In this document: one piece after another, positions 2,397 through 22,436 of the stretch
Numbering within the stretch: the first letter of the stretch is position 1
Layout: every line of letters begins with the position of its first letter
Source of the DNA: a virus
Direction: 5' to 3' (one strand)
Length of the DNA: 25,008 nucleotides
Virus record (IMG/VR): IMGVR_UViG_3300044294_000224
Location: 1-25,008 of that record
Notes under the pieces: generated by a model
Database searches by the model: none
Told to the model about the DNA's origin: nothing
What the model saw: only the letters and a program-made list of their open reading frames with translations
Made by a program: the position numbers and the translations under genes

Positions 2397-5396
2397 TTAT
2401 TCCGTTAAGTTTTCTTCGTCTAGGAATGAAATTTCGTTAGATGGTTTAGCTTTATTTGCTAAGCTTTCTATAAGACTTTTATTCTTTAAATATATTTGTT
2501 TTGCTTCTAAAGCCAAAGGCGAACCTCCTTTATATTGAGGGCGTATGCTATCTGATTCGTTATCGTCAAATTTAGCTCCTCTATTTCCTAACCTATCTTT
2601 TCCAAACGGGCTTTCTTGAGTATTTCTGTTTGTAGATTTTTCTTGAGGACGGCCTAAAGGTATATTTTCATCATACCCTTCAGGAACAGAATTATCTTGA
2701 TATCTTCCTCTACCATATAATGAAGCTAAGTCGTGTGGTGTGCCATATGAACGACCAGTTACTATAGGATCATTTCCTTCTGCAGAAAGCTGTTGAACTC
2801 TAAATGCTCGCTTTTGGTCTTCAACAATTAAATCTCTATATTCTTCATATTGATCTTCACTTAAATGGAAAATATTATCGTAAACCCAATCACTAGGAAG
2901 TAATTTGGTTTCTAAGATTTTTTGAGCTAGGTCCACTTTTTGGGTTAACAACGCTATTTTTTCTTGATCGTAAATGATCGAGGGCGTTGTTAAGTCTAGC
3001 TCAAAATTTGTTAATTCTTCACCATTGTACCCTTGAGAATATAAATGTACTAATGCTATTTTGTATAATTCAGATAAAACAATACGCTGGATTCTATCAA
3101 TTGTGCGAGCAAATCTAATATCTTCTGCGGCTAATGTTGCTTTACCTGTTAAATCTTTTTCGTATCCCATAAATGCTTTTGGCACCTTAAGGGCAGCAAA
3201 TAGTTTTTCTCTTAGATATATCACGTCTGTAATTCCATCAAATTGTAATCCTTGAGAAGTATCAATTTTAGTTACAGTATCATTGCCTCTTACAGGGATG
3301 TAAAAATCCTCAAGTAAGTTTTGCATATTGTATTTTAGATTATATTGGCCTGTTTCGTGGTCAATTAATGGGGTACGTTTTAATGTTGAAATAGTTTTTT
3401 GCATAAAGTTTTCTACTTCAGCAGGAGGGATAGAGCCAACATTAATATAAAATATTCTTCTATCTGGACTACGGGCTATTCTGTTGATTAGCATCGCGTC
3501 TTCCATTAAAATATATTGTTTGAATAATCTGCGGGCTGGTTCTAAGTATGAATTATGAATAATAACACCATCACAAATAAAGTTAGAATTTTTACTTACT
3601 TGTATATCATATGTTTCTTCTGGTAAATCTTCTGTTATTGATTTAATCTTAAATAGTTCAACATTATAATTTGAATTAATTATATTATATTTTTCATATT
3701 GTTGTTTTCTTTTCCCATCTAGATAAAAAGTAAAATCATATGCCTGTTTGCAATTATATTCTTTTCCTAAAATATTACATTTCCCATTCCATTTTCTAAA
3801 TCTAATATTTCCAGTTTTTATTTTAATTCTATCAAGCAAAGATTTTATATCTCTTAACAAATCTTTATTATTTAGTGTTAAATTATATGAATTACAGCCC
3901 CATTTGTCTGTGAATATATAACCATCAGCATCTATCAATCCTTTTATTAATGCTAATTGTGTTTCTTCATCACATTCATATATCCAACTAGGCAATCTTT
4001 TAGAATAACTTTTTCCAACATATCCATTTATAGACATTAAATGGTGGAATATTTTTGAATTAACAGAAACTCCACTAATTTTAATTTTGCTAGTTTTAGA
4101 ATAATTTAAATTTAATTTCTCTTTATTAGAATATTTTTTTAATAAATTTTCATAATATTGATTTTTCTCTTCATTTGTTCCCCTAGCAAAACCTATAGTA
4201 TAATTAGAATTATTTTCCCATCCGTCTCCTAACATAAATCCCCAAAATCTAGCGAATTCTGGGGTTATTTTGTCAGGGAATGAGTTTATAGGGTTTTGGT
4301 TGGTTTTCCAATCATATTTTCCTAGTTCAGGAAGAGTTTTATTTAAAATAGGGTTAGATAATTTAATGTTTGCTTTTTTATAGGAGCATATATAATCATC
4401 TTTTTTTAGATCTTTTACTTGTTTATATTCTGGTTTGTTTTGATTAAAATCCCAAACTAAAACCGGATGATTTTCTGTTAAATTTAACTCATTATGAGCT
4501 GTTTTAATATTATATATTGTTTTAATACCCGAGTTGATTGTATTTAATACATCCGCTATTTCATATTGGTTTTTTTCTATATTAAAGGTCCAAACTTTAT
4601 CTCCTTTTACTATATCTTTTATTTCTTTTATTCCATTTTCAGTATAAATTTTTGAATCTAAACGTGCGCATCTTCCATATGGAAGATAATTAACATCTGT
4701 TAATAATCTAAAATGAGCCATTTCGTAATTATCGAAATATATAGTATTTTTATCTTTTTCAAATGTATTAGGTACACCATAATATCCTGACCCCCCTGAA
4801 TAAGATCCTTCAGGAGAATATTTAAATCTTATAGCATTTGGTTTTTCTTTATCATATTGTTCTTGTCTTTCTATATGATATGCTGTATATGGGATAACAT
4901 TATATACTCCAAATTTTTCAGCTATCTCAAGTTTTAAGAAAAAATCACCATATTTATTCATTTGGCGAATCCAAGACCATAAATTAAATTCGATATTTAA
5001 TACATCATAAAATAAATTATATAATATTTTTTGTATGTCTTCATTTGAGCTTCTAATTTGAAGTACTTCTCCCATATCATTTTTTAAAGTACATTCATCT
5101 GATATAATATCTAAGGCAGAAGCCACAATAGCATCATAATCCATAGTGTCATAATCTGAATAGATCATGGTACGAAGATATTGATAGTTTATATTTAACT
5201 GCTGGCCAAATAATGATGTTGATGATGGGGAGTATAAACGATTATACCTATCCATTATAGAGTTTGTTGCTATATCTCCAGATGTTTGGATAGAGTCAAC
5301 ATCTATTACTTTTAATTGATTCCCCCCTTGATTACGAATGATAATGTCTGTTGAAAACAGGCGCTGTAATCGGGTAAATAAGCTTTTATCTGCCAT
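2397..5396 (-). CDS. gp20: Portal vertex protein (gp20-like) interrupted by a LAGLIDADG intein
   Basis: The reading frame encodes 999 residues; without the intein (residues 243-615) it leaves a 626-residue portal. The N-extein (1-242) contains MIYSDYDTMDYDAIVASALDIISDE and ends at YLPYGR. The C-extein resumes with SYLEPARRLFKQY, which rejoins the conserved portal sequence found in T4-type gp20. RIFYINVGSIPP and DFYIPVRGND follow, both typical of this family. The dodecameric portal forms the DNA entry channel at one head vertex, nucleates prohead assembly and docks the terminase. The gene lies 18 bases after the terminase stop. In T4, genes 18 and 19 lie between 17 and 20; here they are absent. 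An intact portal requires protein splicing, since the insertion disrupts a conserved helix. Confidence 0.95.
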   Translation of the reverse strand: MADKSLFTRLQRLFSTDIIIRNQGGNQLKVIDVDSIQTSGDIATNSIMDRYNRLYSPSSTSLFGQQLNINYQYLRTMIYSDYDTMDYDAIVASALDIISDECTLKNDMGEVLQIRSSNEDIQKILYNLFYDVLNIEFNLWSWIRQMNKYGDFFLKLEIAEKFGVYNVIPYTAYHIERQEQYDKEKPNAIRFKYSPEGSYSGGSGYYGVPNTFEKDKNTIYFDNYEMAHFRLLTDVNYLPYGRCARLDSKIYTENGIKEIKDIVKGDKVWTFNIEKNQYEIADVLNTINSGIKTIYNIKTAHNELNLTENHPVLVWDFNQNKPEYKQVKDLKKDDYICSYKKANIKLSNPILNKTLPELGKYDWKTNQNPINSFPDKITPEFARFWGFMLGDGWENNSNYTIGFARGTNEEKNQYYENLLKKYSNKEKLNLNYSKTSKIKISGVSVNSKIFHHLMSINGYVGKSYSKRLPSWIYECDEETQLALIKGLIDADGYIFTDKWGCNSYNLTLNNKDLLRDIKSLLDRIKIKTGNIRFRKWNGKCNILGKEYNCKQAYDFTFYLDGKRKQQYEKYNIINSNYNVELFKIKSITEDLPEETYDIQVSKNSNFICDGVIIHNSYLEPARRLFKQYILMEDAMLINRIARSPDRRIFYINVGSIPPAEVENFMQKTISTLKRTPLIDHETGQYNLKYNMQNLLEDFYIPVRGNDTVTKIDTSQGLQFDGITDVIYLREKLFAALKVPKAFMGYEKDLTGKATLAAEDIRFARTIDRIQRIVLSELYKIALVHLYSQGYNGEELTNFELDLTTPSIIYDQEKIALLTQKVDLAQKILETKLLPSDWVYDNIFHLSEDQYEEYRDLIVEDQKRAFRVQQLSAEGNDPIVTGRSYGTPHDLASLYGRGRYQDNSVPEGYDENIPLGRPQEKSTNRNTQESPFGKDRLGNRGAKFDDNESDSIRPQYKGGSPLALEAKQIYLKNKSLIESLANKAKPSNEISFLDEENLTE
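3552..4670 (-). mobile_element. Intein with LAGLIDADG homing endonuclease in portal gene
   Basis: This in-frame insertion of 373 residues occupies portal residues 243-615. It begins with Cys (CARLDSKIYTENG, block A), has the block B motif LTENHPVLVW, and ends in His-Asn (GVIIHN) followed by Ser as the +1 nucleophile. All residues for standard splicing are present. The endonuclease part has two DOD motifs: WGFMLGDG (residues 385-392, Asp391) and LIKGLIDADG (483-492, Asp491). Both catalytic acids are intact, so homing may still work. Boundaries were set by continuity of the portal sequence LPYGR/SYLEP across the splice and by the Cys and Asn/Ser splice residues. Confidence 0.93.
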
Positions 5397-5414
5397 TGTT
5401 TTTTGTTATAAATA

Positions 5415-8150
5415 TTATAGAAGCCAATTAATGTTTTCTTGTCCATATTTTGTTTCTAAAATATATGGGTTTTGGATATTATTTAGATTATATGCTCCTA
5501 CTGCTGTATTTTTTTTAATACCACTAAGTGCTGCTCTAGTCATATCTAGACTTTGTTGTTGGAATTTTAATGAAGTATCTCTTAAAAACATTCCTATAGC
5601 AAAAGACATAATCAAATCATCATTATAACCGGATTGTGCTTCGGGTCGGCCATTTTTCCAAACAAATACTTTCATTTCTTCTAGCAAGCGTTTAGATTGT
5701 ATTGTAACACTTCTATCTCCAATATATTCTCTCATTTTATTCACTACAAGAGGACGAGTTCTTAAAGACATTGTAAAACCGGGAGTCATATTTGAATCTC
5801 CTTCATATATTTTTAGGTATGATTCTGAAGTAAGTTGATCAGATTTAGGTGAATGATATAGGTTTCTGTATCCTCTTTCAATAATAGAATCTAAAGTAGC
5901 CCATCCAATTGAAGCGTTCTCTACAACAAGTAAAGCATTATTATACTCCGTAGCAATAGCAACTAACATATAACCAAATTCTTTTGGACTCATTTGTCCC
6001 CTATATTCTGCTATTTGAGAATTTGTTGCTATATCAATCACATGAAATGCAGAAAAATCTTTACCATCTCCTCTAGCAACGTCTGCTATTACCATATATT
6101 CTCTAGTATAATCTGCTGATTCCCATATCCACAAATTTTGGTCTGCGCCTCTGCGTTCCATTGGATCTTTAATGGTAGTAGATTTAATAAAATCTATCCA
6201 TTCATTATAGAATACTATATCTCCGGATGTGTTAAAATCACAATCACAATTATGTACTATCCCATATTCAGTTACATAAGTATGAGTATTTTCTACTTCT
6301 ATATTAAATACTTCAATAGGAGTATCATCTATTTCTAGTTTTAAGCTTACATAAGGTTCATTGATATATTCAAAATTACAATTAGAATCAGATTTTCCAA
6401 CAGTATTTAAACGTTTCCAATTTTCAATTCTTTTACTAAATACTTTTTCATTTGAAGAAATTAGAGAATTAGTCCAAGTTAATGTATAATTAGGTTTCCA
6501 ACTGCTATTTTTAGGATTTTGTGATTTTCCCTGCTTTATACTAACATTATGTATTCCTAATATATTAGTAATGTATAAAATATCATATATAAGCTTTTCA
6601 GAGGTTAGCAAAAGTTGAATGTTATATTCTGGTTTAAGTAGTCCATCTCCTATTAATATTCCATCTAAAATCCCTTTTAGTACTTCATTATTTGATAAAG
6701 AATATATAAAAGAGCTAATGTGTTTGTTGTGGCATTTTTCTCCTCCTTGAATGCATAATTTTATAAAATTATTAAATATTTGATCTTTAATATAAAGTTT
6801 ACTACTTCCCTCCCACATTTTAGAAGTATAATAAGAAAAACGATTAATGTTAAATTTTTCAAATAAGATTCTTTCAATTTCAAGAGGAAAACTATTTCTT
6901 TCGGTTTTTCCATTGAATGAAAATTCAACTTTATTTTTAGCTAATGACCCTTCTGAAAGAAAGCATCCTAAAATGAATCCTAAATCATAATCTATGTCAA
7001 TGTATCTATTTATTTTACTAGTTTTAGTTAACCATATATATTTTTCATCTATTTTTAAAGGAAAAGATGTAGGAGAATTTGAAGTAATATATTTAGATAA
7101 ATCTATATTTTGAGTAGGAATTTTATACTCATCTATTTTAGGAAAATATTTAACTTTATTTTGAGTAGTTATTAATGAATTAATTTCTTCCCATTCATTA
7201 TTTTTATTTAAAAATGGATGATTTAAAGTAGTAAATTTTTGTATATTATTTAACCCTCCTTTTATTTTTACAGGATTATTTTCTATATGATTAAAAATTC
7301 TTACTACTTTATTATAGGTACCATCATGACTTAAAACTAAATCTTCTATTTTTATATCTTTAATATATTTTGGGCCATGTTTAGTATAAATTATTGTATT
7401 TTCACTAAAACATTCTTGTGCTGCTAGCCTAGGATCACCTAATAAATCATCTTGTCGTTTTCTCCATGTCTCATCTCGTTCAGGATGAACATACCAAGGT
7501 AATTTAATAGGTAAAAAATCATTATCTGCTTGTTCTGCTCTAACCCATGTTTGATGAAACCAATTGCCAGTTCCGTATGGCGTAGATAACACAATTGCTC
7601 CTCCTCCTGTTGCTAAAGTTTGTTGTGCTGAGGCCCATATTTCTCCAATATTTTCAATAAATGCGGCTTCATCTACTAGTAATAATGATACTGCTTCTGA
7701 TCTACCGGCGTCACTAGCGGCAGATGTTGCTTTAATTATTGATCCATTAGATAATCTTAATGATAGTCTATTGTTTTCTGCGGCTTCTATTTTTAACCAT
7801 GATGGTAAGTTATCATACATAAACTTAACCTTAGTTACCATATTACGTGCAGTTTCTTGTTTTGTAGCTATACAAAGTACATTTTTATCTTTATGAAAAG
7901 TCATTAACCATAAAGAATACCCAGCCGCTAATGTTGATATGCCTAGTTGTCTTGATTTAAGTACTATAGAGTATGGATTTTCTTTCCATAATTTTAATAC
8001 TTTATCTTGAAAAGGGTATAAATTAAATAATACTCTACCTCTTTGCGGGTGTTGAATATTACAGTATTTACGCATAAAATGGCTAGGATCAGTAGCACAT
8101 TTTATATACTCTTGTTTGAGTATTTCTTTTATATTTTGTTGTTCACTCAT
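5415..8150 (-). CDS. gp17: Large terminase subunit (gp17-like) interrupted by a LAGLIDADG intein
   Basis: The reading frame encodes 911 residues; removing the intein (247-634) leaves 523. The ATPase domain shows a Walker A-like SRQLGIST (66-73), Walker B LLLVDE (156-161) and the coupling motif STP (189-191). The C-extein carries the RNase H-like nuclease, with Asp690 in IADVARGDG, Glu744 in LLVVENAS and Asp844/845 in YNDDLIMSF. This motor cuts concatemeric DNA and pumps it through the portal into the prohead. The intein sits in the AAQE/CDCDF segment between ATPase and nuclease domains. The start overlaps the stop of the membrane protein gene as ATGA. No small terminase (gp16) is recognisable nearby. 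Confidence 0.95.
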   Translation of the reverse strand: MSEQQNIKEILKQEYIKCATDPSHFMRKYCNIQHPQRGRVLFNLYPFQDKVLKLWKENPYSIVLKSRQLGISTLAAGYSLWLMTFHKDKNVLCIATKQETARNMVTKVKFMYDNLPSWLKIEAAENNRLSLRLSNGSIIKATSAASDAGRSEAVSLLLVDEAAFIENIGEIWASAQQTLATGGGAIVLSTPYGTGNWFHQTWVRAEQADNDFLPIKLPWYVHPERDETWRKRQDDLLGDPRLAAQECFSENTIIYTKHGPKYIKDIKIEDLVLSHDGTYNKVVRIFNHIENNPVKIKGGLNNIQKFTTLNHPFLNKNNEWEEINSLITTQNKVKYFPKIDEYKIPTQNIDLSKYITSNSPTSFPLKIDEKYIWLTKTSKINRYIDIDYDLGFILGCFLSEGSLAKNKVEFSFNGKTERNSFPLEIERILFEKFNINRFSYYTSKMWEGSSKLYIKDQIFNNFIKLCIQGGEKCHNKHISSFIYSLSNNEVLKGILDGILIGDGLLKPEYNIQLLLTSEKLIYDILYITNILGIHNVSIKQGKSQNPKNSSWKPNYTLTWTNSLISSNEKVFSKRIENWKRLNTVGKSDSNCNFEYINEPYVSLKLEIDDTPIEVFNIEVENTHTYVTEYGIVHNCDCDFNTSGDIVFYNEWIDFIKSTTIKDPMERRGADQNLWIWESADYTREYMVIADVARGDGKDFSAFHVIDIATNSQIAEYRGQMSPKEFGYMLVAIATEYNNALLVVENASIGWATLDSIIERGYRNLYHSPKSDQLTSESYLKIYEGDSNMTPGFTMSLRTRPLVVNKMREYIGDRSVTIQSKRLLEEMKVFVWKNGRPEAQSGYNDDLIMSFAIGMFLRDTSLKFQQQSLDMTRAALSGIKKNTAVGAYNLNNIQNPYILETKYGQENINWLL
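6249..7412 (-). mobile_element. Intein with LAGLIDADG homing endonuclease in terminase gene
   Basis: The insertion is 388 residues, terminase residues 247-634. It starts CFSENTIIYTKHG (block A), has block B FTTLNHPF, block F VFNIEVENTHTYV and ends YGIVHN, followed by Cys as the +1 residue. The penultimate His and final Asn are intact. DOD motifs are LGFILGCFLSEG (390-401, Glu400) and LKGILDGILIGDG (491-503, Asp502). It is clearly different in sequence from the portal intein, so the two are not a recent duplication. Splicing is required to restore the link between the ATPase and nuclease domains. Confidence 0.93.
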
Positions 8151-8737
8151 TTACCTATTTTCCAAAACAATTTAAACGAGGCTTGTGGGAATAAATCTTG
8201 ATTTACTCCTAATCCTATCCCAATTGCTTTGCGTTTTTTGGTCCTGTATAGCATTTCAGCACCAATATAACTAATTTGATTAGTACCTCCAACTAATCCT
8301 ATACCAGCATACCATTCTCTGTTATTTATATAAACAGTATTTTCAATTGTAATTTTTGGTATTTCTAAATTTGATTGAACTTTACGAGCTAAAATATAAT
8401 TTTTTGTTATAGTGTCTTTTACTATTATATTACCAAAGGTATCAATTTGGATAGTATCTTGATAAGCATATGTTGAATAATAGTCTTTTAATATTTCATT
8501 AGTATCAATAGGACCTTGAGATGCAATAAATGTATCTATATCTGTTATAGTATCAACACGAGTCCTATATTTTGGGACATATACCGGTGTTTCAATTGTA
8601 ACAGGTACTATTTCAATAGTTTTCTTTGTAATTACAGTGCCCTCTTTAATATCAGGAGGTAAAGTAAGCAAATAAATAATAACTCCTATAAGAGATATTA
8701 TTATAATAGGTTGAATTATTTTAGATAATACACTCAT
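8147..8737 (-). CDS. Membrane-anchored protein of unknown function, possible spanin or envelope protein
   Basis: The product has 196 residues. An N-terminal hydrophobic helix (about residues 7-26, IIQPIIIISLIGVIIYLL) is followed by a Thr/Val/Ile-rich stretch with repeated DTI/DTF motifs. The end looks like amphipathic beta strands (WYAGIGLVGGTNQISYIGAE, then KAIGIGLGVNQD and a final FKLFWKIGK), resembling outer-membrane strand pairs. This layout resembles small envelope proteins encoded by Bacteroidota phages, some proposed as lysis spanins; that assignment is inference. The ATGA overlaps on both sides couple it to terminase and to the leader protein. It could also be a structural or superinfection protein. 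Confidence 0.75.
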   Translation of the reverse strand: MSVLSKIIQPIIIISLIGVIIYLLTLPPDIKEGTVITKKTIEIVPVTIETPVYVPKYRTRVDTITDIDTFIASQGPIDTNEILKDYYSTYAYQDTIQIDTFGNIIVKDTITKNYILARKVQSNLEIPKITIENTVYINNREWYAGIGLVGGTNQISYIGAEMLYRTKKRKAIGIGLGVNQDLFPQASFKLFWKIGK

Positions 8738-9537
8738 TTTATAACATCACTTACCAAAGCCATTAAATCTGTACCTTTAATTTTAAATAAATCTTTTACC
8801 TCTTTTCTATTAATTATTTGTTTTAATATATCTAAATCACTTGATTTTTTACGTTCAGATGGAGTCATTTTAGAAAGCTTATCAACTTTTTTTGTAATTC
8901 CGGTTTTAAGTGTTTTATATTTTTCTTCTTGTGCCGCAGTAAGTTTACCGGCATGAGTAGCACTACCTTTAACAGTTTTTTCTCCCTTTTTTAAATCAGC
9001 TTGTGATGGCTCTTTATCATCATCTGATGTGTCTTCGGGGTCTGGTCTGCCATATGTATCTTCTATTTCTATATCTTCGTCTTCTGGTTTTGTTTTTCTA
9101 CCAAGTCTTTCACCTTTTTTATCCTCTTCTGATTTTTTAGTTGCTATATTTAGATTTGGTTTTCTACCACGTTGACTTAATTCTCTTTCACCTTTAACTA
9201 AATCTATAAATTGATTTAATTGATTATCAAAAAGTGATTCTCCACCTAATGCTGTTTTTACATCTGAGTCTGATTTAATTGCTTGCCTCAAATCTGATTT
9301 AGCTAATTTAGATTTATTTTTTATAACTGCTTCAATAGCAGTTTTTAAATCACCAGTAATTTTAGCCATTTCAGTTAAATTACCTTTATCTTCTTGTGTA
9401 ATTTTAGGAGCGTTAGGATCAAACTGATAACCTATTTTTTTACCAGTAAGCTCTCTTGCTACATTAGGGTCACTAGTAACAGTTAATTCAGCTAAAATGA
9501 TTTCTTTAATATATTGTTTTAATTCCGATATTTTCAT
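8734..9537 (-). CDS. Charged leader-bearing protein with AT-hook-like motifs
   Basis: The product has 267 residues from the ATG at 9537-9535. I chose this start over an in-frame ATG nine codons upstream because that one lies across the ATATTTATAAT element and breaks the leader. The N terminus MKISELKQYIKEIILAELT is a clear copy of the shared amphipathic leader, with L-A-E. A helical segment follows, then a low-complexity acidic and basic middle with RGRKP and LGRKTKP, which look like AT-hook cores, and an acidic stretch (EDEDIEIEDTYGRPDPEDTS). The end is helical. DNA binding inside the head is a plausible role, but this is inference. The gene sits just before the packaging genes, so a small-terminase-like adaptor cannot be excluded. 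Confidence 0.78.
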   Translation of the reverse strand: MKISELKQYIKEIILAELTVTSDPNVARELTGKKIGYQFDPNAPKITQEDKGNLTEMAKITGDLKTAIEAVIKNKSKLAKSDLRQAIKSDSDVKTALGGESLFDNQLNQFIDLVKGERELSQRGRKPNLNIATKKSEEDKKGERLGRKTKPEDEDIEIEDTYGRPDPEDTSDDDKEPSQADLKKGEKTVKGSATHAGKLTAAQEEKYKTLKTGITKKVDKLSKMTPSERKKSSDLDILKQIINRKEVKDLFKIKGTDLMALVSDVIK

Positions 9538-9567
9538 ATTTATGTTTTTATTATAAATATGCATTTT

Positions 9568-10186: not shown

Positions 10187-10645
10187 TTAAATATCATATC
10201 CTCCTCTTATAGAAACAGAAAATATATGTTTTTTATTTTCTTTTCCTTTATATGTTACTGTTGTTTCTCTAAAAGATTGTCCTGGTCCTCCGTAAGTGTA
10301 CCCCCCAATATTAGATTGAAGATTTTCTTTAAATTCTTCTACTGCATTCTTACCTGTGTATCCGCCAAGATCATTAAGACCAAATTCTAATTCGAATTCT
10401 AAATAATATGTTCCTTCTTCATCAGGGCCATGTGTAAATTTTATAGAATCTTTGTTAATAGATTTATATAAATCTGATTCTTCTGATACGGTATCTTTGA
10501 CAATTTGGGTTGCTAATTCTTGATTAGCATTGTTTTTTGGTTCAAAATTAGATAATCTTTTTTCAGCATCAGTATTTTTATCTTCATTAATAATGCCAGC
10601 AAGCTTTTGCATTCTTCTAAATTCCTCAGATAATATTTGTTTCAT
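10187..10645 (-). CDS. Leader-bearing protein of unknown function
   Basis: The product has 152 residues. The N terminus MKQILSEEFRRMQKLAGIIN carries the second leader type, RRMQKLAGI, followed by an I-N-E tripeptide. The same motif appears at the C terminus of the 130-residue protein at 20565-20957 (RRLQRIAGL). After a charged linker, residues 60-152 form an alternating strand pattern (TYYLEFELEFGLNDLGGY, TVTYKGKENKKHIFSVSIRG). This suggests a small alpha/beta domain that I do not recognise. Cleavage after I-N-E would release a mature protein of about 131 residues. A packaged internal protein is the inference. Confidence 0.75.
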   Translation of the reverse strand: MKQILSEEFRRMQKLAGIINEDKNTDAEKRLSNFEPKNNANQELATQIVKDTVSEESDLYKSINKDSIKFTHGPDEEGTYYLEFELEFGLNDLGGYTGKNAVEEFKENLQSNIGGYTYGGPGQSFRETTVTYKGKENKKHIFSVSIRGGYDI

Positions 10646-10983: not shown

Positions 10984-11814
10984 TTAAGAATTTTGAAGAA
11001 TCGAAGAAGCCACATAAATACCATGAGCACCTGAAACTGTTATACCACGAGCTGATAAAGCATCACCTACAAAGTGCACATTTGGGTATTTAGTTAATGA
11101 CAAATCGTTGTAATTTACAAGAGGCTCTGGACTTAGATATTTTACCTCAGGGATATATATCCCCCAATCATCTTTTAGTGTTGGGAATACTTTTTTCATA
11201 TCGTAAATAAAATCTGTAATATAATCAAAATATCCCTTAAAGGCTTCAATTACTTTGCTTAACTCTGTTAATCTTATAACGCGAACAGGATTATTTTCAG
11301 AAGTAAACGATGGTTGTCTAAAACCAGGACTATAATATAGACCGGCTTTGTATAAAAAGCCTTCTCCAGTAGGAGAATGTGAAGGCGGGATATTTACAGA
11401 AACATTACATTGGTTAACAACGTTGCGTGACCATTCAAATGGATCTTCAATACCATTAATTTCCATCAAAATACCAAAATTGGTCATATCGTTTTTGTAT
11501 TTTGGGTCTTTTTTAGCATGCCCGTTGTAACTATAGTCGCCGTATGTTTCTTCTACGGCAACATAAGCTGCATTATTGTTTGTACAAAAAGAGCGAAGTG
11601 AAACGCCTTTATCTTCAAATTTTCTATAAAGTTTGAAATCATATGATATATCGATTAGTTTTTGGAAATGGTGTTGGGGTGCTTCAAAACGGACTCCCAA
11701 CTGGACACTCTTTGGCTCAGTAGGTAAATCATATTTTTTAGCTAATTTAGCTGAAAAATTAATTCCAGTTTTTCCTGTTCCTACAATACACGTGTCAAAT
11801 TTTATTTTTCTCAT
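10984..11814 (-). CDS. FAD-dependent dehydrogenase, C-terminal fragment
   Basis: The product has 276 residues. It picks up a COG2509-type NAD(FAD)-utilising dehydrogenase partway through. The start IKFDTCIVGTGKTGINFSAK is the internal 'A-x-G-x-x-G' segment. RFEAPQHHFQ, RSFCTNNNAAYVAVEETYGD and the FAD-closing HFVGDALSARGITVSGAHGI follow in family order. The first half is encoded separately at 12523-13050, and the two products together cover one full-length enzyme of about 450 residues without obvious overlap. It could work as a two-chain enzyme or be a relic; the conserved FAD-contacting residues look intact. The MR start is probably newly acquired. Confidence 0.85.
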   Translation of the reverse strand: MRKIKFDTCIVGTGKTGINFSAKLAKKYDLPTEPKSVQLGVRFEAPQHHFQKLIDISYDFKLYRKFEDKGVSLRSFCTNNNAAYVAVEETYGDYSYNGHAKKDPKYKNDMTNFGILMEINGIEDPFEWSRNVVNQCNVSVNIPPSHSPTGEGFLYKAGLYYSPGFRQPSFTSENNPVRVIRLTELSKVIEAFKGYFDYITDFIYDMKKVFPTLKDDWGIYIPEVKYLSPEPLVNYNDLSLTKYPNVHFVGDALSARGITVSGAHGIYVASSILQNS

Positions 11815-11874
11815 ATTAATTGTTTTTATATTTCCATATATTAATAAAACTCATTTTGTATCATAACTTTTATT

Positions 11875-12501
11875 TTAAATGTCTAACATTTTTAATTCTC
11901 CTTTTGAATTATAACCAAAATTTTCATCATTTATATCTTTTTCTATTTTTGAACCCCATGAAATATTCTTTACATTTTGAAGTAAGGGATACCAATTTTT
12001 TATTAAAGAATTATATAAATTACTTGGTAGTTCTTTTTGTAATTGAGATTTTAATTCATTATCATCTAAATTATTATATATCAATTGACTCATCTTAGAA
12101 TTATACCAATTAGGTCCTTTAATTCGAGGTCTTTGAACTAATTTAGCAATATATTGGTTTTTAGGTGGAATTTCTGATGATTGGGAGAATAAATATTCTT
12201 TACATTCCCACATTTCTGAGGATGCTTTTCTATCGTCTAATTTTTCTAAAATAGCGTAATTATATCCCATATAATAAACTTTTGGAAAAACATCAGGATA
12301 TTCAGTAAATATTTTTAAATTATCTCCTATCTCTCCTTCCCCACTATAATTAAATTTAATTACTTTATCTTTATCATAATCATAAACTTTATGTTGTCCT
12401 CCTTTACCATATTCAGATCCTATTAAATCTTTATCATATATTTCATTTAATACCTTACTAATTTCTTCTTTAATTAGTTGTATTAATTTAGATTTTTTCA
12501 T
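11875..12501 (-). CDS. Kinase-like protein with capsid-leader-like N terminus
   Basis: The product has 208 residues. Residues 1-20, MKKSKLIQLIKEEISKVLNE, form the shared leader ending L-N-E. Then comes a protein-kinase-like core: a glycine loop YGKGGQHKVY (31-40), a strand VIKF with the presumed ATP-contacting Lys49, a hinge-like LEKLD, and near the end KDINDENFG, where Asp189 and Asn194 match the kinase catalytic loop D-x4-N. The protein stops right after LKMLDI, the DFG-equivalent position, so the activation segment and C-lobe helices are missing. Such minimal kinase-like folds occur in T4-like marine phages. The gene separates the two halves of the dehydrogenase. It may be a packaged effector modifying host proteins or small molecules (inference). 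Confidence 0.72.
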   Translation of the reverse strand: MKKSKLIQLIKEEISKVLNEIYDKDLIGSEYGKGGQHKVYDYDKDKVIKFNYSGEGEIGDNLKIFTEYPDVFPKVYYMGYNYAILEKLDDRKASSEMWECKEYLFSQSSEIPPKNQYIAKLVQRPRIKGPNWYNSKMSQLIYNNLDDNELKSQLQKELPSNLYNSLIKNWYPLLQNVKNISWGSKIEKDINDENFGYNSKGELKMLDI

Positions 12502-12514
12502 AATTGTGTTTTAA

Positions 12515-12524
12515 TATAAATATT
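12515..12524 (-). promoter_or_regulatory. A/T-rich pre-start element before the kinase-like gene
   Basis: The coding strand reads AATATTTATA, overlapping the stop codon of the dehydrogenase N-terminal fragment and lying 13 bases before the ATG. It belongs to the recurring family of start-proximal elements. Confidence 0.35.
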
Positions 12525-13050
12525 AATCTTCTAATATTACCTCTCCAGTTTCAAAATCAATATTATCCACTTTAGTTTCCCAAATAAATTGTACACCTTT
12601 AGATACTAAATAATCATACCATCTTTTTCCTATTTCGTGAAGATAATCTGTGCCAATATGATATACTCCAAATAAACGTAAACCAAAATAGGGCTTAATA
12701 AAATCTGGTTCTTCGGTAGGGTTGGAGTACATAATTTTAGATGGATCAGGATGAAATCGTTTCCATGTTTCTATAACTTCATCCATCAATTGGTATGCTT
12801 TTTCTTCACCACAATATTTTGATAATTGACCACCAATCATATGATGATAGGTTAATTTACCATCAGAGAACCCTCCACTCCCTAGCCATCCTGACATTAC
12901 TTCTTCCGGTTTACGTTGGTATGGGTTTTTTCCCATATCAATGATAGTAATAAGTTCTCCAGGGTAGCCATTATCTATTAATTTTGTTACAGCATGCGCT
13001 CCTGCTACTCCTCCTCCAATAATTACAATTTTTTTAGTATATTTATTCAT
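12523..13050 (-). CDS. FAD-dependent dehydrogenase, N-terminal fragment
   Basis: The product has 175 residues from MNKYTKKIVIIGGGVAGAHA, a Rossmann FAD-binding motif GGGVAGAHA with the strand ending in an acidic residue (IIDMG). LGSGGFSDGKLTYHHMIGGQ is the typical next motif of the COG2509 family. It ends at NIDFETGEVILED, inside the hairpin where the C-terminal fragment (10984-11814) resumes. I chose the ATG at 13050 because an upstream in-frame ATG lies inside the endonuclease gene. The break between halves is filled by the 208-residue kinase-like gene. The substrate is unknown; it may be a phage-carried metabolic gene. Confidence 0.85.
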   Translation of the reverse strand: MNKYTKKIVIIGGGVAGAHAVTKLIDNGYPGELITIIDMGKNPYQRKPEEVMSGWLGSGGFSDGKLTYHHMIGGQLSKYCGEEKAYQLMDEVIETWKRFHPDPSKIMYSNPTEEPDFIKPYFGLRLFGVYHIGTDYLHEIGKRWYDYLVSKGVQFIWETKVDNIDFETGEVILED

Positions 13051-13051
13051 A

Positions 13052-13411
13052 TTATTTATATTTCCATTTATATCCAAAAGCTGTTTTTTGTCTCCCTAAT
13101 ATACAATCCTTTATTTGAGAAGTCACGTTACTTTTTTTATTTGTTTGTTCTTTTATCCATACAGCAGCTTGTCCTTTGCTTTCCCATTCTTTAATAATAT
13201 TATTTTCTAAATCACATTGCCAAACCGGTTTAGCTTGTTTACGTTTTGCTATCCCCATTGCTATTTTATGGGATTCTGAGAATGGTTTTGGTTTTCCTTT
13301 ATTGTTTTGACTAATTTTTTGCTTGATTTCATCTGTATAATATTGAGAATGATTTCTTTCTCTTAAAGTTTTACTTATTTTTTCACCCGTTCCAGGGCGT
13401 GGTCCTTTCAT
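13052..13411 (-). CDS. GIY-YIG homing endonuclease, C-terminal DNA-binding part (frameshifted)
   Basis: 119 residues are read from an internal Met, but coding clearly continues upstream in this frame to the G run at 13446-13452 (GGPSNYTEEQKQKMKGPRPG). It carries NUMOD3-like repeats (SQNNKGKPKPFSESHKIAMG) and a NUMOD1/helix-turn-helix region (QAAVWIKEQTNKKSNVTSQI) ending in the usual FGYKW. These parts bind the target DNA of group-I-type homing enzymes. It joins the catalytic fragment at 13408-13701 if one G is added to the run of seven. Translated alone it would be a DNA-binding domain without nuclease. Confidence 0.85.
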   Translation of the reverse strand: MKGPRPGTGEKISKTLRERNHSQYYTDEIKQKISQNNKGKPKPFSESHKIAMGIAKRKQAKPVWQCDLENNIIKEWESKGQAAVWIKEQTNKKSNVTSQIKDCILGRQKTAFGYKWKYK

Positions 13412-13701
13412 TTTTTGTTTTTGTTCTTCAGTATAATTTGAAGGGCCCCCCCTCCATTATTTTTATTTTCTAATTTAAATCCCCAACACCTAAATTGTTC
13501 TATCCAATAACTTTTCCAAAATTTCCAATCTTCAACTTCGTCTATGACATAAGATTGAATATCTAAACCATATGTTTTTCTATGAGAGTGTTTTCTTCGA
13601 GTTGAATCTTTTGTCTTCCCAACATAAAATGGAATCCCGTTTTTTTCTAATATATAAATTTTAATCATGTTGATTTTATTATACATATGTTGAAATTCCA
13701 T
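13408..13701 (-). CDS. GIY-YIG homing endonuclease, catalytic part (frameshifted)
   Basis: 97 residues. The GIY-YIG core reads IYILEKNGIPFYVGKTKDS, then R-rich SRRKHSHRK-like helix residues, and Glu in WIEQFRCWGFKLENKNNGGG, the catalytic Glu position of the family. The frame is lost in seven G and ends as ALQIILKNKNKK. A strong Shine-Dalgarno sequence (GGAGG, 8 bases before the ATG) is present, unlike nearly all other genes in the window, which hints at separate origin. It follows a strong terminator and precedes the dehydrogenase. It is free-standing rather than inside an intron as far as I can see. Confidence 0.87.
   Translation of the reverse strand: MEFQHMYNKINMIKIYILEKNGIPFYVGKTKDSTRRKHSHRKTYGLDIQSYVIDEVEDWKFWKSYWIEQFRCWGFKLENKNNGGGALQIILKNKNKK
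13446..13452 (-). other. Homopolymer frameshift site in GIY-YIG gene 1
   Basis: A run of seven G on the coding strand within the codons of a Gly-rich linker. Eight G would keep one open frame; equivalently, a -1 ribosomal shift would join the frames. Confidence 0.8.
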
Positions 13702-13710
13702 CTGTCCATC

Positions 13711-13717
13711 CTCCGGT
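13711..13717 (-). promoter_or_regulatory. Shine-Dalgarno sequence of GIY-YIG gene 1
   Basis: GGAGG with upstream CC lies 8 bases before the ATG at 13701. It is notable because almost every other start in the window has no such site. Confidence 0.6.
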
Positions 13718-13735
13718 TAATTATTAAAGGTACAT

Positions 13736-13775
13736 AAAAAAAGTGGCGTCTCCAAGTTTATTGGGATGACGCCAC
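13736..13775 (-). terminator. Strong intrinsic terminator, right border of accessory block
   Basis: The stem GTGGCGTC/GACGCCAC (13743-13750 with 13768-13775) is extended by an inner TCCAA/TTGGGA pairing and followed on the minus strand by seven T. It is unusually G+C-rich for this genome and lies 29 bases after the stop at 13805. Confidence 0.9.
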
Positions 13776-13804
13776 AGCTGTCAGTTTTTTTGTTAAGCGA
13801 CCTG

Positions 13805-14080
13805 CTATGAATAGGCCTGTATTTTATATATTTTTAATTTAAGTGTTCCTGTTCCTTTTATAACACGATGATATTCGTGTTTGGGTATAAATATGTGAGA
13901 ATTTAGGGAAGTCGGCAACTGGTTATCAAGTTGTAGTTGCCAATCTGTTTTACCTATGATTTCTACTATTCTTGACTCATTATCCCGATGCCAAAGTAGT
14001 TCTATAGGGTCTATATTTTCGTCAAATTCACGAATAATATAGCTGTCTGTGATTTCTATATCTTTATACGGCTTTGTCAT
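13805..14080 (-). CDS. Conserved small cupin-like phage protein
   Basis: The product has 91 residues, MTKPYKDIEITDSYIIREFD onward. WHRDNESRIVEIIG, TDWQLQLDNQLP, HIFIPKHEYHRVIKGTG and a final KLKIYKI form a beta-rich pattern. The HEYHRVIKGTG segment resembles the strand and turn of single-domain cupins. I recognise a matching unnamed family in aquatic T4-like phages. The ATG at 14080-14078 overlaps the previous gene by 17 bases; the longer in-frame start at 14110 would extend a further 30 bases into that gene. Metal binding and function are unproven. Confidence 0.8.
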   Translation of the reverse strand: MTKPYKDIEITDSYIIREFDENIDPIELLWHRDNESRIVEIIGKTDWQLQLDNQLPTSLNSHIFIPKHEYHRVIKGTGTLKLKIYKIQAYS

Positions 14081-16227: not shown

Positions 16228-16605
16228 TTATACGTATTGGGCTTTATATTGCCTTTTACATAGAGTATTTGCTTTTCCAATTAATTGGCATCTTACTGTT
16301 TCTGGGTTGATTTTTAGGAAAAGGGCTAGGTCAAAGTAACTAGGATAGGTATTAATGTATCCTCCTTGGACAGTGTATAATGCAACTGGTTTGCTTTTAC
16401 CTTTATTTGGGCTTATTCTACCTTTATGAGCTTCAGATACTTTAGGTTTGGGGCCGTCTGGTTTTCCTTTTTTAGATGTAGTAGATCCTTGTTTTGCTTT
16501 GGATATTTTTTCACATATTTCTTTAGAAAATTTACGTCCTGTTAATTTTTCACTAACAGTTTTTTTAGTTTCTTCTTTATGAATATTATTTCCCCCTAGC
16601 ATCAT
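16228..16605 (-). CDS. GIY-YIG homing endonuclease 2, C-terminal DNA-binding part (frameshifted)
   Basis: 125 residues. From the G run it reads GGNNIHKEETKKTVSEKLTG, then NUMOD3-like repeats (SEAHKGRISPNKGKSKPVAL) and a NUMOD1/HTH end (YPSYFDLALFLKINPETVRC). The Met start overlaps the catalytic fragment in another frame and is probably not the real start; this is the downstream half of the gene whose catalytic part is at 16586-16855. It ends eight bases before the ParB-like gene. Confidence 0.85.
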   Translation of the reverse strand: MMLGGNNIHKEETKKTVSEKLTGRKFSKEICEKISKAKQGSTTSKKGKPDGPKPKVSEAHKGRISPNKGKSKPVALYTVQGGYINTYPSYFDLALFLKINPETVRCQLIGKANTLCKRQYKAQYV

Positions 16606-16855
16606 TAGTCATATTATAATATAAAGGATTATTTACTGCGTTTACTTTTTCTAAAAAATAAGTTTCTATATTACGAGCATTTCCTTTACCTTCCCATAAT
16701 ATATCTCTTTGAAAATTATTTTTTCCATACTTTTTTAAAGCATCTTTTATTACTTTCCCACTACCATAATAGTTATAATCTATTTGAGATTTTTTAGAAG
16801 AACCAATATATTTTCTTCCATTTATTTTGTTAATTATAAGATAAACATAAGCCAT
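16586..16855 (-). CDS. GIY-YIG homing endonuclease 2, catalytic part (frameshifted)
   Basis: 89 residues. It starts MAYVYLIINKINGRKYIGSS, the GIY-YIG core, followed by YNYYGSGKVIKDALKKYGKN and the catalytic Glu in ARNIETYFLEKVNA. The frame is lost at a run of five G (16592-16596), giving ARGK and a stop. Four G would restore one open frame into the downstream part. No group I intron is evident around it, so it looks free-standing. It is preceded by an A/T element rather than a Shine-Dalgarno sequence. Confidence 0.87.
   Translation of the reverse strand: MAYVYLIINKINGRKYIGSSKKSQIDYNYYGSGKVIKDALKKYGKNNFQRDILWEGKGNARNIETYFLEKVNAVNNPLYYNMTNDARGK
16592..16596 (-). other. Homopolymer frameshift site in GIY-YIG gene 2
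   Basis: Five G on the coding strand in the same linker as in gene 1. One G fewer, or a +1 ribosomal shift, would join the frames. Confidence 0.75.
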
Positions 16856-16887: not shown

Positions 16888-17568
16888 CTACCAAAAACCG
16901 CTAAAATTATTTCCTAGTCCTAACTGTTTAGCATAACGACCAACTCTACATGACCAATATCTCGCACTTGTTCTTGGCTCCCCAGTACCACATTTATGTC
17001 TAGCGGCAAAAGCTTTTCTTCTTTTAGGATTTTTAAATCCTACACTCATACCAGGAGCGCCAAAACTAACTTTTTTAACACGTTTAGTTTTAGGGTCTCT
17101 TACATAAACATAGAATTTTTTAGATCCACCACGTTTTGGTTTACCAATTGGTGGAGTTTTCTTTTTTTTATCTGCTTCTTCTAGTTCAACTTCTTCCATT
17201 ATAAAATCTAATGGAACCTTTTTACCTTCATACATCCCAAATTCACCCAATTGTGTTTCAGTTAATATTTCAAGATCGTCTTGGTTTTTAATATCTATAA
17301 TATCGCGAGAATATAATGCTCTTGCCTCAGACCATAAATCAAAATATTTTTGTGAACCCGCACGATATACGTGTTCAGTAAGCGGTTTGTTATTGTCTAT
17401 ATGGTATTTAAGCCCCTCAGACAATATTTCGCGTGGTGCGATTGATTCATTAAGTATAGGCGCTATCATGCGTTTATCTTCACAAGTGTTACAACCACAA
17501 GAACATGATTTTTTCTTTAAGTTATGTATTTGGATAGATTCTTTGATAAGTTTGCGAAGTGTGTTCAT
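16888..17568 (-). CDS. Conserved leader-bearing Cys- and Lys-rich phage protein
   Basis: The product has 226 residues. The leader MNTLRKLIKESIQIHNLKKK is followed by a tight Cys cluster SCSCGCNTCE (21-30), which may bind metal. Two processing-type sites follow, ILNES (39-43) and ILSEG (48-52). The middle (YHIDNNKPLTEHVYRAGSQK; LGEFGMYEGKKVPLDF) and the C terminus (RGGSKKFYVYVRD, SARYWSCR) match an unnamed protein widespread in T4-like cyanophages. The basic C terminus could bind DNA. If processed, the Cys cluster would be removed with the leader. Confidence 0.82.
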   Translation of the reverse strand: MNTLRKLIKESIQIHNLKKKSCSCGCNTCEDKRMIAPILNESIAPREILSEGLKYHIDNNKPLTEHVYRAGSQKYFDLWSEARALYSRDIIDIKNQDDLEILTETQLGEFGMYEGKKVPLDFIMEEVELEEADKKKKTPPIGKPKRGGSKKFYVYVRDPKTKRVKKVSFGAPGMSVGFKNPKRRKAFAARHKCGTGEPRTSARYWSCRVGRYAKQLGLGNNFSGFW

Positions 17569-18545: not shown

Positions 18546-19474
18546 TATACTTTTTTAGTAAAGCGATTATCTATTGCGGTTTTAAGAGCAGAAGTATTTA
18601 CTCCAGCAATTTTAGGATTAATAGTATTTAAAATATATTCTAAAAAAGATAGAATTTCACTGGGCTGATCAACTTTTTGTAAAGCATTTATTAAAGAAGT
18701 ATTGCTTTTAACTATTTTAGTAAGATTAACTACATCAGAAGGTGTTTCTATTTCAGATAAAATGATTTCTCTAATAATTTTACGTAATTGTTGTGTTTTC
18801 ATATTTTCTTTAATTAATTTTGTTGCAAATTTATTTCCAGATTTAAGAGCAATATTAAATGCTTCTATTAAAGGTTTTAAAAGTTCATATATAATTTCTA
18901 CTCCATTAATAATAGGCTGTAGCCATCCTATGTAAGATGTAAAGTCTGTTAATTTATTAGTAATAGTAGTTAGTATTTCAGAAGATGAAGAAAAAAGTTT
19001 AGTAAGATATTTTACAATTTTTTCTGAGGAGAGTTTTTCAGTAATAAATATTACTATACTTCCCAAAGTAGTTAGGAGCATAAATTTTTTCCATCCTGTT
19101 AATGATTTAATTTCTGTAAAAAATTCTTTAATTTTTTCAACCCAGGACTCTAAATTTTGTTTTTTTAAAAAATCAGTAAGTGATAAAATTAATATTTCTA
19201 CTCTTCTTTCTAGTGGTTTTAAAAAATTATTTAATAACTCACTATCAGATAATACTTTTCCCATAACAACAGCTGCATCTTTCCAATCTTTAATATTTGT
19301 TATAACTTGATTATATTTTTCAGAAGTATATTTTTTAATACTATCCAAAAAGGTTTCGTATAATAATTGTTCTTGAATGATATGTAATTTTATAGATTTA
19401 CTTAAGTAAACTGATTCATTAAGAGGGATAGAAATTCCTAAAGTAAAATTTATATGTTCTTTAGATATATCCAT
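18545..19474 (-). CDS. Helical protein with internal leader: apparent fusion
   Basis: The product has 309 residues. Residues 1-224 are helical and include a hydrophobic stretch (KFMLLTTLGSIVIFITEKL, about 130-148) that could cross or sit on a membrane. At residue 225 an in-frame Met opens a perfect leader, MKTQQLRKIIREIILSEIE, with L-S-E, followed by a short helical domain of about 70 residues. This looks like two genes joined in frame. Either the ATG at 18802 also serves as a start, or the head protease cuts the fusion after L-S-E. I do not recognise the N-terminal domain; the hydrophobic helix suggests a membrane-active or injected protein. Confidence 0.75.
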   Translation of the reverse strand: MDISKEHINFTLGISIPLNESVYLSKSIKLHIIQEQLLYETFLDSIKKYTSEKYNQVITNIKDWKDAAVVMGKVLSDSELLNNFLKPLERRVEILILSLTDFLKKQNLESWVEKIKEFFTEIKSLTGWKKFMLLTTLGSIVIFITEKLSSEKIVKYLTKLFSSSSEILTTITNKLTDFTSYIGWLQPIINGVEIIYELLKPLIEAFNIALKSGNKFATKLIKENMKTQQLRKIIREIILSEIETPSDVVNLTKIVKSNTSLINALQKVDQPSEILSFLEYILNTINPKIAGVNTSALKTAIDNRFTKKV

Positions 19475-19483
19475 AATTAATTT

Positions 19484-19945
19484 TTATGCTGTTGTATCTT
19501 CTTCAGCTGCTGGTTCTTCAGCGGGGACTTCAGCAGGAGTTTCAGCAGGAATTTCTGCTTCTTCTTCTCCTTTATCTTCTATTTTAGTTCCTTGTCTTAG
19601 TAAGCGAGAAATAGCATTAGCTGCTGCCTCTTCTTCGTTTAAATTTAATAAGTAATATTTTTTACCTTCTATTTGAGCAATCCATGAACGTAAAGTAAAC
19701 ATAAGATAAAAATTAGTTTCATTTTTTAAATTAATACGGAATGTTGTTGGGCGGGGAGCAACCCAATCAATAGATGCTAAGAAATAATCAAAATCTGATG
19801 TAAGTAAATCTACTATTACTTTTTTTAGTTCTGGGAATTTGGTTAATTCATCATATTCAACAGCAGCAATTTCAACTTTTTTGCGATTAGCAAGAGATTG
19901 TTTTGCTATTGATTTGATTTTGATTACAAGTTCGTCGCGGTTCAT
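19484..19945 (-). CDS. Small structural-type protein with acidic Ala/Glu/Pro tail
   Basis: The product has 153 residues. The globular part (1-115) alternates helices and strands (MNRDELVIKIKSIAKQSLAN; RPTTFRINLKNETNFYLMFT). The last 35 residues are a disordered repeat of Pro-Ala-Glu units (AEIPAETPAEVPAEEPAAEE). Such tails are found on phage structural or chaperone-like proteins. The start overlaps the previous stop by one base (TAATG), so it is probably translated by coupling. The family is an unnamed phage one; function unknown. Confidence 0.78.
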   Translation of the reverse strand: MNRDELVIKIKSIAKQSLANRKKVEIAAVEYDELTKFPELKKVIVDLLTSDFDYFLASIDWVAPRPTTFRINLKNETNFYLMFTLRSWIAQIEGKKYYLLNLNEEEAAANAISRLLRQGTKIEDKGEEEAEIPAETPAEVPAEEPAAEEDTTA

Positions 19946-20564: not shown

Positions 20565-20957
20565 TTATTTAATAAGACCTGCTATTCTTTGTAAGCGACG
20601 AAGTTCGTAGTTTTCCATTAATGATTCTTCTCCAGCTTCTGGGCCTTCGTCTTTAGTTACGTGGTTACGAGTATAATATGTGATAGCATTATTCATTAAT
20701 CTATCAAATTTATCGTCGTCTACTTTATCTTTTAAGTCTTCTAAAGTTTTTAAAATTTCTTCATTTGAGTTTTCAGTAGCTGACTCTTCGTCTGTAGTAA
20801 TTTCTATATCTTCTTCAGTTTCATCAGTGGGAGGAGGTTGAGGTTCTTCTTTTTTCTTTTTTTCAGATAAAAAATCATATTCTGAAATGTCACTATCAGT
20901 AGATAATTCTTGAATAATATTTTTACGGATTAACTCTTTAAGATCGGATCTTTTCAT
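20565..20957 (-). CDS. Acidic leader-bearing protein with both shared motifs
   Basis: The product has 130 residues. The N terminus MKRSDLKELIRKNIIQELST is the shared leader with I-Q-E. The middle is a highly acidic, probably disordered segment (TDETEEDIEITTDEESATEN). The C terminus YELRRLQRIAGLIK carries the second shared motif, which is at the N terminus of the protein at 10187-10645. It has the features of an acidic scaffold or internal core protein. An A/T element lies about 22 bases upstream of the start. Confidence 0.78.
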   Translation of the reverse strand: MKRSDLKELIRKNIIQELSTDSDISEYDFLSEKKKKEEPQPPPTDETEEDIEITTDEESATENSNEEILKTLEDLKDKVDDDKFDRLMNNAITYYTRNHVTKDEGPEAGEESLMENYELRRLQRIAGLIK

Positions 20958-20993: not shown

Positions 20994-22436
20994 TTATAAT
21001 TTACGAAGTCTTTCCATAACTTTTTTTACTAAAGTTTCTTCTAAACCTTGTTCACGACGAAATTGGTTTTCATCTTTTTCTATTTCATCTCTAGTTACTT
21101 TACCCATAAATTCTTCTTTGAACTGAGGAAAGTTATTTACAGGTTTTCCATATAATTCAATAGTTTTATCTTCTATATTAATAGAGATATCAGCGGTTTG
21201 GTAACCCATGTCTAATATTAATGTATTATAATTTTTACCAATAGCAATTCCACCAGTGATTCTAGCACCTACTTTTTCAGCCCAATCAGCAACTTTATTA
21301 ACTAAAGAAGATATACCTTTTCTTTTAGCAAATTCTTTAATGTTTGAAGGAACATATGCTTCTGTTAACTCACCTTCGTTTACTTTTTTAGAAGTAAGAT
21401 TAGTCCAATCAGTTTTTATTGTTCTTATCTCATTATCATTTTTATCATATACTACAACTTGATAAATAGCCATCATATTATAGTTACGAGCCGATGATGT
21501 ATCTTTTATTACTCCATAGTATCCTTGTGATGAAGGGTATTTTTTACCCATATCGCCTCTGAAGTAGACTTTATCACCTACTTCATTTCCCATACCTTCT
21601 TTACTTTCTTTAGTAATTATACTTTTATCTAAGTTATATTTGTTAACTAAGTGGGATTGTTCCCAAGAATCTAACCAACCAAAGTATTTAATACCAAATA
21701 TTTCTTGAGCTAATAAATCTTCTTTTTTATATTTAGGTCCACCTTTCCAAGGATCATTTTTAAATTTATCATCCTCAATTTCTTTAATATCTTCAGCAGC
21801 ACCTACAATAGCATCATAATCTTCCATAGATAAGATACCTCTTTCTTTACCTAATTTATTTGCTTTTTCGGTAACGTTATGTAAGTCTAAATCTTTTTTA
21901 GCATCTTCTCTTGAATATTCTAACATACGAAGGAATAAAGGGATATCCATTGTGATGGTATCTACTGGGTCTTCTTCTTTGGCTTCATTGACTGGGTTTT
22001 CAAAAGAAGCATTATTAAAGAAATCCCAAATCCATTCAGCCATTTCCATAGTAAAATTGGACTCACCAATCATATCAATTAATTGGTTAATTTTAGCTAC
22101 AGCTTTAGGATAACGTCTTAACTTTATATTAATAAATTCTTTACCAGATTTAAAACCATTAGCTTCATCTAAAGATAATCCTCTTTTATCCATCTCAATT
22201 TTAACTAATTTTTGTTGAAAAGCAAGAGGTGTATTTGGAATACCTTTACCAATACCTTTATTACTCTTAGCCCAAGCAATTAAAGTACTATCTGATAGTT
22301 TTTTAATTTGTGAAGCAAATTCTTGTGGGGTCCAGTCTTCACCAGCCCATCCTAATTTACGGAGGAATTTTTCTGTTGAAGATGCTTCTTCTAAAGGTTT
22401 AGAGAAAAATTTTTTAATTTTTTGTAGATCTTCCAT
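20994..22436 (-). CDS. Large multidomain protein of unknown function
   Basis: The product has 480 residues. It begins MEDLQKIKKFFSKPLEEASS, with an L-E-E/A processing-type site. A helical domain follows (TPQEFASQIKKLSDSTLIAW). Residues about 150-215 contain DIPLFLRMLEYSREDAKKD and MEDYDAIVGAAEDIKEI, a helical module I recognise from other aquatic phage proteins. A beta-rich stretch (GDKVYFRGDMGKKYPSSQGY) recalls a small SH3-like barrel, and the final part (GARITGGIAIGKNYNTLILD) is alpha/beta. It is probably a head-associated protein made of shuffled modules; no catalytic motif is evident. Confidence 0.78.
   Translation of the reverse strand: MEDLQKIKKFFSKPLEEASSTEKFLRKLGWAGEDWTPQEFASQIKKLSDSTLIAWAKSNKGIGKGIPNTPLAFQQKLVKIEMDKRGLSLDEANGFKSGKEFINIKLRRYPKAVAKINQLIDMIGESNFTMEMAEWIWDFFNNASFENPVNEAKEEDPVDTITMDIPLFLRMLEYSREDAKKDLDLHNVTEKANKLGKERGILSMEDYDAIVGAAEDIKEIEDDKFKNDPWKGGPKYKKEDLLAQEIFGIKYFGWLDSWEQSHLVNKYNLDKSIITKESKEGMGNEVGDKVYFRGDMGKKYPSSQGYYGVIKDTSSARNYNMMAIYQVVVYDKNDNEIRTIKTDWTNLTSKKVNEGELTEAYVPSNIKEFAKRKGISSLVNKVADWAEKVGARITGGIAIGKNYNTLILDMGYQTADISINIEDKTIELYGKPVNNFPQFKEEFMGKVTRDEIEKDENQFRREQGLEETLVKKVMERLRKL

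Follow-up and report, generated by a model that had tools for sequence, protein, structure and literature searches.

The adjacent portal and large terminase (TerL) genes of this virus are each interrupted by an intein. At a probability of about 0.9, the two are unrelated class 1 LAGLIDADG homing inteins, with splicing and cleavage themselves predicted. They look like mobile passengers rather than a control switch, because near-identical viruses exist without both of them. The window, meaning the whole stretch of 25,008 nucleotides that was analysed, is a 25-kb virus record in which the portal and TerL open reading frames (ORFs) are neighbours, both on the minus strand and without an internal stop.

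Two inteins within the portal and terminase genes

The features of the two genes are as follows.

2397..5396, minus strand, portal (T4 gp20-type) precursor gene, 999 aa; 626 aa after splicing
3552..4670, minus strand, portal intein, 373 aa (ORF residues 243-615), at the LPYGR/SYLEP site, with a LAGLIDADG homing endonuclease (HEN) inside
4464..4481, minus strand, portal intein block B, LTENHP, with the conserved His68 (family alignment)
4218..4253, minus strand, portal intein LAGLIDADG motif 1, GFMLGDG (family alignment)
3915..3950, minus strand, portal intein LAGLIDADG motif 2, GLIDADG (family alignment)
3552..3572, minus strand, portal intein C-terminal splice block, DGVIIHN, then +1 Ser (junction reading)
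5415..8150, minus strand, large terminase (T4 gp17-type) precursor gene, 911 aa; 523 aa after splicing
6249..7412, minus strand, TerL intein, 388 aa (ORF residues 247-634), at the AAQE/CDCDF site, with a LAGLIDADG homing endonuclease inside
7215..7232, minus strand, TerL intein block B, TTLNHP, with the invariant T62 and H65 (family alignment)
6945..6983, minus strand, TerL intein LAGLIDADG motif 1, GCFLSEG (family alignment)
6642..6680, minus strand, TerL intein LAGLIDADG motif 2, GILIGDG (family alignment)
6249..6269, minus strand, TerL intein C-terminal splice block, EYGIVHN, then +1 Cys (junction and family alignment)

The host proteins were compared with their solved relatives in phage T4, and homology was found for the portal with gp20 (E 2e-20) and for TerL with gp17 (E 2.6e-35). 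By Pfam, the portal ORF was matched to Portal_T4 (E 1.4e-60), Intein_splicing (E 1.5e-19) and LAGLIDADG_3 (E 1e-7). The TerL ORF was matched to Terminase_6N (E 3.4e-11), with Hint_2 and LAGLIDADG_3 under their cut-offs. The TerL insertion, as read from the gp17 alignment, falls after about residue 351 of gp17, which we take to be just ahead of the nuclease domain. The two inteins are separated by 1,578 bp. No match was obtained when the window was scanned for Rfam families and tRNA genes.

The junctions read LPYGR/CARLDS...GVIIHN/SYLEP in the portal and RLAAQE/CFSENT...GIVHN/CDCDF in TerL. Both inteins carry the sequence features of class 1, namely Cys1, a block B of the TxxH type, a terminal His-Asn and a +1 Ser or Cys. 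Both insertions are in frame, and the exteins join into a conserved protein at each site. Cys1, the block-B His and the terminal His-Asn are invariant in the alignment of six portal-site inteins; within block B, which reads TENH in the window copy, His68 is invariant and Thr is replaced by Ser in some members. Similarly, C1, T62, H65 and H387-N388 are invariant among 15 inteins of the TerL-site family. The acidic LAGLIDADG residues of the window copies lie in GDG and DADG (portal) and in SEG and GDG (TerL).

AlphaFold models were obtained with a pLDDT of 80 for the portal intein and 89 for the TerL intein. The best PDB match of both was TliVMA, a HEN-bearing intein (Z 28.5 for portal and 29.4 for TerL), and PI-PkoII was also matched (Z 26.0 and 28.0). 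The models follow TliVMA, PI-PkoII and PI-SceI over the full length, including the LAGLIDADG homing endonuclease fold. The HINT fold was recognised by similarity to DnaB mini-inteins in the portal intein model (Z about 21) and to gp41-1 in the TerL intein model (Z about 16.5). The identity of the TerL intein is secured by its 15-member family with invariant splice residues together with the predicted fold. Two full inteins with intact splice residues and two LAGLIDADG motifs each had been proposed in the original prediction; these residues and motifs were found, and they are conserved within the families.

Support for separate origins of the two inteins

The portal and TerL inteins share 24% identity, and in the intein tree the portal-site and TerL-site groups are reciprocally monophyletic (support 100/100). 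Separate arrival of the two, also part of the original prediction, is supported because they sit in reciprocally monophyletic, site-specific families. A pattern scan of the TerL site picked up intein-like ends in 33 stretches of contigs, and a profile scan detected many inteins at the LPYG[RK]/S portal site. These scans indicate that each site has its own widespread intein family. Three of the 12 matches to the portal N-junction pattern (contigs L130, L132 and L134) were rejected as chance matches in short unrelated frames. Among cultured phages, only distant matches to the window inteins were found, at about 36% identity or less. The search of the TerL inteins against bacterial and archaeal genomes likewise returned only distant inteins, at about 27% over the full length.

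Filled and empty sites in related viruses

Both insertion sites had been described as conserved, and the comparison with relatives bears this out: intein-free relatives, at about 62-98% identity, align exactly through both junctions without an insert. The cultured Flavobacterium phage immuto also aligns exactly at both junctions, has no inteins, and is 58-60% identical. All four occupancy states are seen in near relatives. Both sites are empty in contig L002, whose portal/TerL pair is 98% identical to that of the window at the amino acid level. Both inteins are present in L082, a contig not identical in sequence to the window. L086 has the portal intein only, in a HEN-less form of 156 aa, with an empty TerL site and 98% identity in TerL; L088 has the TerL intein only.

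Occupancy was scored in the closest 80 relatives of the TerL N-extein among the matches listed, which were picked blind to inteins. In this sample, 79 contigs could be scored at the TerL site, of which one is filled, and 62 at the portal site, all of them empty. Inteins in both the portal and TerL genes also occur in L091, L092, L098/L104/L106, L100, L110 and L209. The presence of inteins in both genes in several other lineages indicates that the double state is recurrent.

Mobility, selection and flanking haplotype

The best TerL extein tree calls for a minimum of 15 state changes of the TerL intein and 7 of the portal intein; many forks of this tree are weak, and the sample was partly chosen for intein carriers, so these counts are not a frequency. 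In the HEN part, dN is about 0.03-0.04 against a dS of 0.6-0.9 for the TerL intein, and 0.16 against 0.85 for the portal intein. On these substitution estimates, the HEN parts of both inteins are under purifying selection. When the window was paired with L087, dN was 0.047 for the TerL intein versus 0.147 for its host gene, and dS was 0.53 versus 0.92. Horizontal transfer of the TerL intein is suggested because the inteins of this pair are closer than their host genes.

Nine of the 13 SNPs that mark the intein-bearing portal alleles (window, L082 and L086) fall at positions -4 to +43 of the site, with four elsewhere in 1.32 kb; near relatives with an empty site (L002, L003, L004 and L230) are without these SNPs. 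The nine probably reflect one event, and therefore the binomial statistic indicates clustering only. This flank of about 50 nt resembles a co-conversion tract, and shared ancestry of a short segment could also account for the tight haplotype. L088, with its portal site empty, has exactly the nine flank SNPs of the intein-bearing alleles. Its site may be the scar of intein loss, the donor haplotype of the intein's spread, or a resistant haplotype. The compared contigs are nearly all metagenomic, and flanks that look recombinant may in part be mosaics assembled from mixed strains.

Decayed and split forms

HEN-less or short portal inteins were found in L086, L133, L216, L218, L222 and L121. Degenerate HENs were found in L110 and others; in L110 both window sites are filled, and each HEN has one LAGLIDADG acidic residue replaced (AKG in TerL, GGG in portal). 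Split inteins occupy the window's TerL site in L100, L111 and L116, and L116 has a further split intein at the TerL Walker B region. In L113 the intein at the window's TerL site is contiguous, and a split intein lies at the Walker B region. L209 has a split TerL intein two residues downstream of the window's site. An extra ORF sits between the split TerL intein halves of L100, L113 and L116.

Within the clade, inteins were also seen at several other sites of the portal gene. Three inteins, of 150, 141 and 458 aa, were seen in the portal gene of L121 (from 7451), a huge-phage record (LR756508, unannotated). A weak second TerL-like match, at 22-23% identity, was seen just upstream of TerL in L131 (3894-4568), L207 (1756-2361) and L222 (556-1296).

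Alternative explanations

Chimeric assembly, in which inteins were joined in silico to the packaging genes of other strains, had been named in the original prediction as a danger to it. L082 matches the window without a difference over kilobases, yet the two diverge by about 8% in three blocks (13443-13935, 18791-19735 and 21541-21883 in reverse-complement coordinates), and two of the three begin 31 and 84 nt 3' of an intein. The block edges were rejected as marks of the intein ends, since random placement gave P 0.057, which is not significant and only suggestive. Assembly mosaicism might still be the source of the L082/window mosaic. However, the intein junctions are exact and in frame, and homologous inteins fill the same sites in many other contigs. 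A one-off artefact is unlikely because a second, non-identical contig, L082, has both inteins, each in frame as in the window; chimeric joining as the origin of the two inteins is considered extremely improbable. The same contig bears on the idea that the 1.6-kb interval is co-converted as a linked unit, with one active endonuclease carrying the other intein along. The short distance of 1,578 bp, the zero or one SNP per intein between the window and L082, and the known interaction of neighbouring inteins in haloarchaea (PMC10643990) speak for it. However, either intein occurs alone in close relatives (L086 and L088), the inter-intein interval shows about 8% divergence between L082 and the window along some 900 bp, and both window HENs look intact. 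Linked transfer is judged unlikely.

Independent homing inteins also have to be weighed against the suggestion of a timing or redox switch, in which splicing of portal and terminase would be delayed, or gated by the state of the cell, to the benefit of the phage. We infer that packaging in the window genotype needs two splicing events. Cys1 is used by both inteins, as the switch would have it, but Cys1 by itself is the ordinary nucleophile of class 1 inteins. TerL inteins are common in mycobacteriophages (PMC5050341). This suggestion did not hold up well: both sites are empty in 98%-identical relatives and others have one filled, few of the nearest relatives among the matches listed carry an intein, and Cys is absent from the N-exteins within 60 residues of both junctions. 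Occupancy of the two sites is not associated along the tree, in a comparison with few informative pairs and low power. The selection on the HENs fits mobility, and HENs are conserved in some family members and decayed in others. The switch is therefore regarded as very unlikely; it is lowered and not brought to zero because some inteins elsewhere, such as that of mycobacterial DnaB, are documented to splice conditionally (PMC6195587).

Other features of the window

An FAD-type dehydrogenase gene (phrog_12409, 10984-13077) is present as two halves, 12523-13077 and 10984-11814, split by an inserted 208-aa ORF (11875-12501); in L083 the dehydrogenase is a single 454-aa frame (2571-3932). A GIY-YIG endonuclease at 13052-13701 is represented by two overlapping ORFs, and its L083 counterpart (1723-2577) is one frame of 285 aa. 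A second GIY-YIG (SegE-like) and NUMOD ORF pair lies at 16228-16855. Short LK-x-LI(R/K)E-like or RRMQKLAGI-like motifs were seen near the protein ends at 8734-9564, 11875-12501, 16888-17568 and 20565-20957, and at 10187-10645. The proteins with these motifs are otherwise unrelated. The motifs could be capsid-targeting or protease-site tags.

Discussion

The favoured mechanism is that of separate invasions, in which each site-specific selfish intein would have entered a highly conserved stretch of one of the two neighbouring packaging genes. In the protein, the intein would excise itself via Cys1, the block-B His, His-Asn and the +1 Ser or Cys, leaving an intact portal or terminase. In the DNA, its endonuclease would cleave the intein-free allele upon co-infection, and repair of the cut allele would copy the intein plus some flanking DNA. 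A broader and rather doubtful extension is that the terminase-portal pair of the T4-type clade is a multi-site homing hotspot, repeatedly invaded by LAGLIDADG, HNH-like, mini and split inteins. Their endonucleases would drive packaging-gene conversion between co-infecting viruses, and carriers would gain by marker exclusion.

A natural, fine-grained view of the homing cycle is provided, with empty, filled, HEN-deleted and flank-converted alleles in close relatives, and wider relatives contribute degenerate and split forms. Phage intein gain, loss and co-conversion become directly testable with this large natural set of intein variants at two sites. Location in an essential gene alone is poor ground for assigning a function to inteins.

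Naturally split TerL inteins, such as AceL-TerL, are known in the fractured-gene arrangement. The split TerL inteins of L100, L111, L113, L116 and L209 are arranged like this type, whereas the window TerL intein is contiguous with its own LAGLIDADG endonuclease. TerL inteins are also known from crAss-like phages. In mycobacteriophages (PMC5050341), inteins reside in TerL and portal (PORT) genes, the same two hosts as in the window; splicing was shown for five of the TerL inteins and cutting of intein-free alleles for two. However, those phages differ from that of the window, the insertions in their TerL fall within the ATPase domain, often close to the P-loop, Walker B or C motif, and their portal site is apparently not the T4-type LPYG/S site. 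The Kuttervirus phages Maynard and Marshall (PMC3868846, PMC3853055) have an intein within a T4-like large terminase, as the window does, but that of Maynard is short and sits at the P-loop (ARQSGK/TTV) instead of AAQE/C. Eggerthella phage LE2-3 (MW679026) similarly has an intein-like match in its portal gene, at 22.5% identity over the whole length; however, the portal is a different one, and the intein-like match falls outside the portal-site family in the tree. Two independent, sporadic homing inteins close to each other are also known as haloarchaeal MCM-a and MCM-d (PMC10643990), but both lie in one archaeal gene, whereas those of the window lie in two adjacent phage genes. In a partial literature search, neither the T4-type LPYG/S portal site nor the double occupancy was found described. 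Inteins of both kinds are known already; the T4-type portal site, the dual occupancy and the population picture appear to be new.
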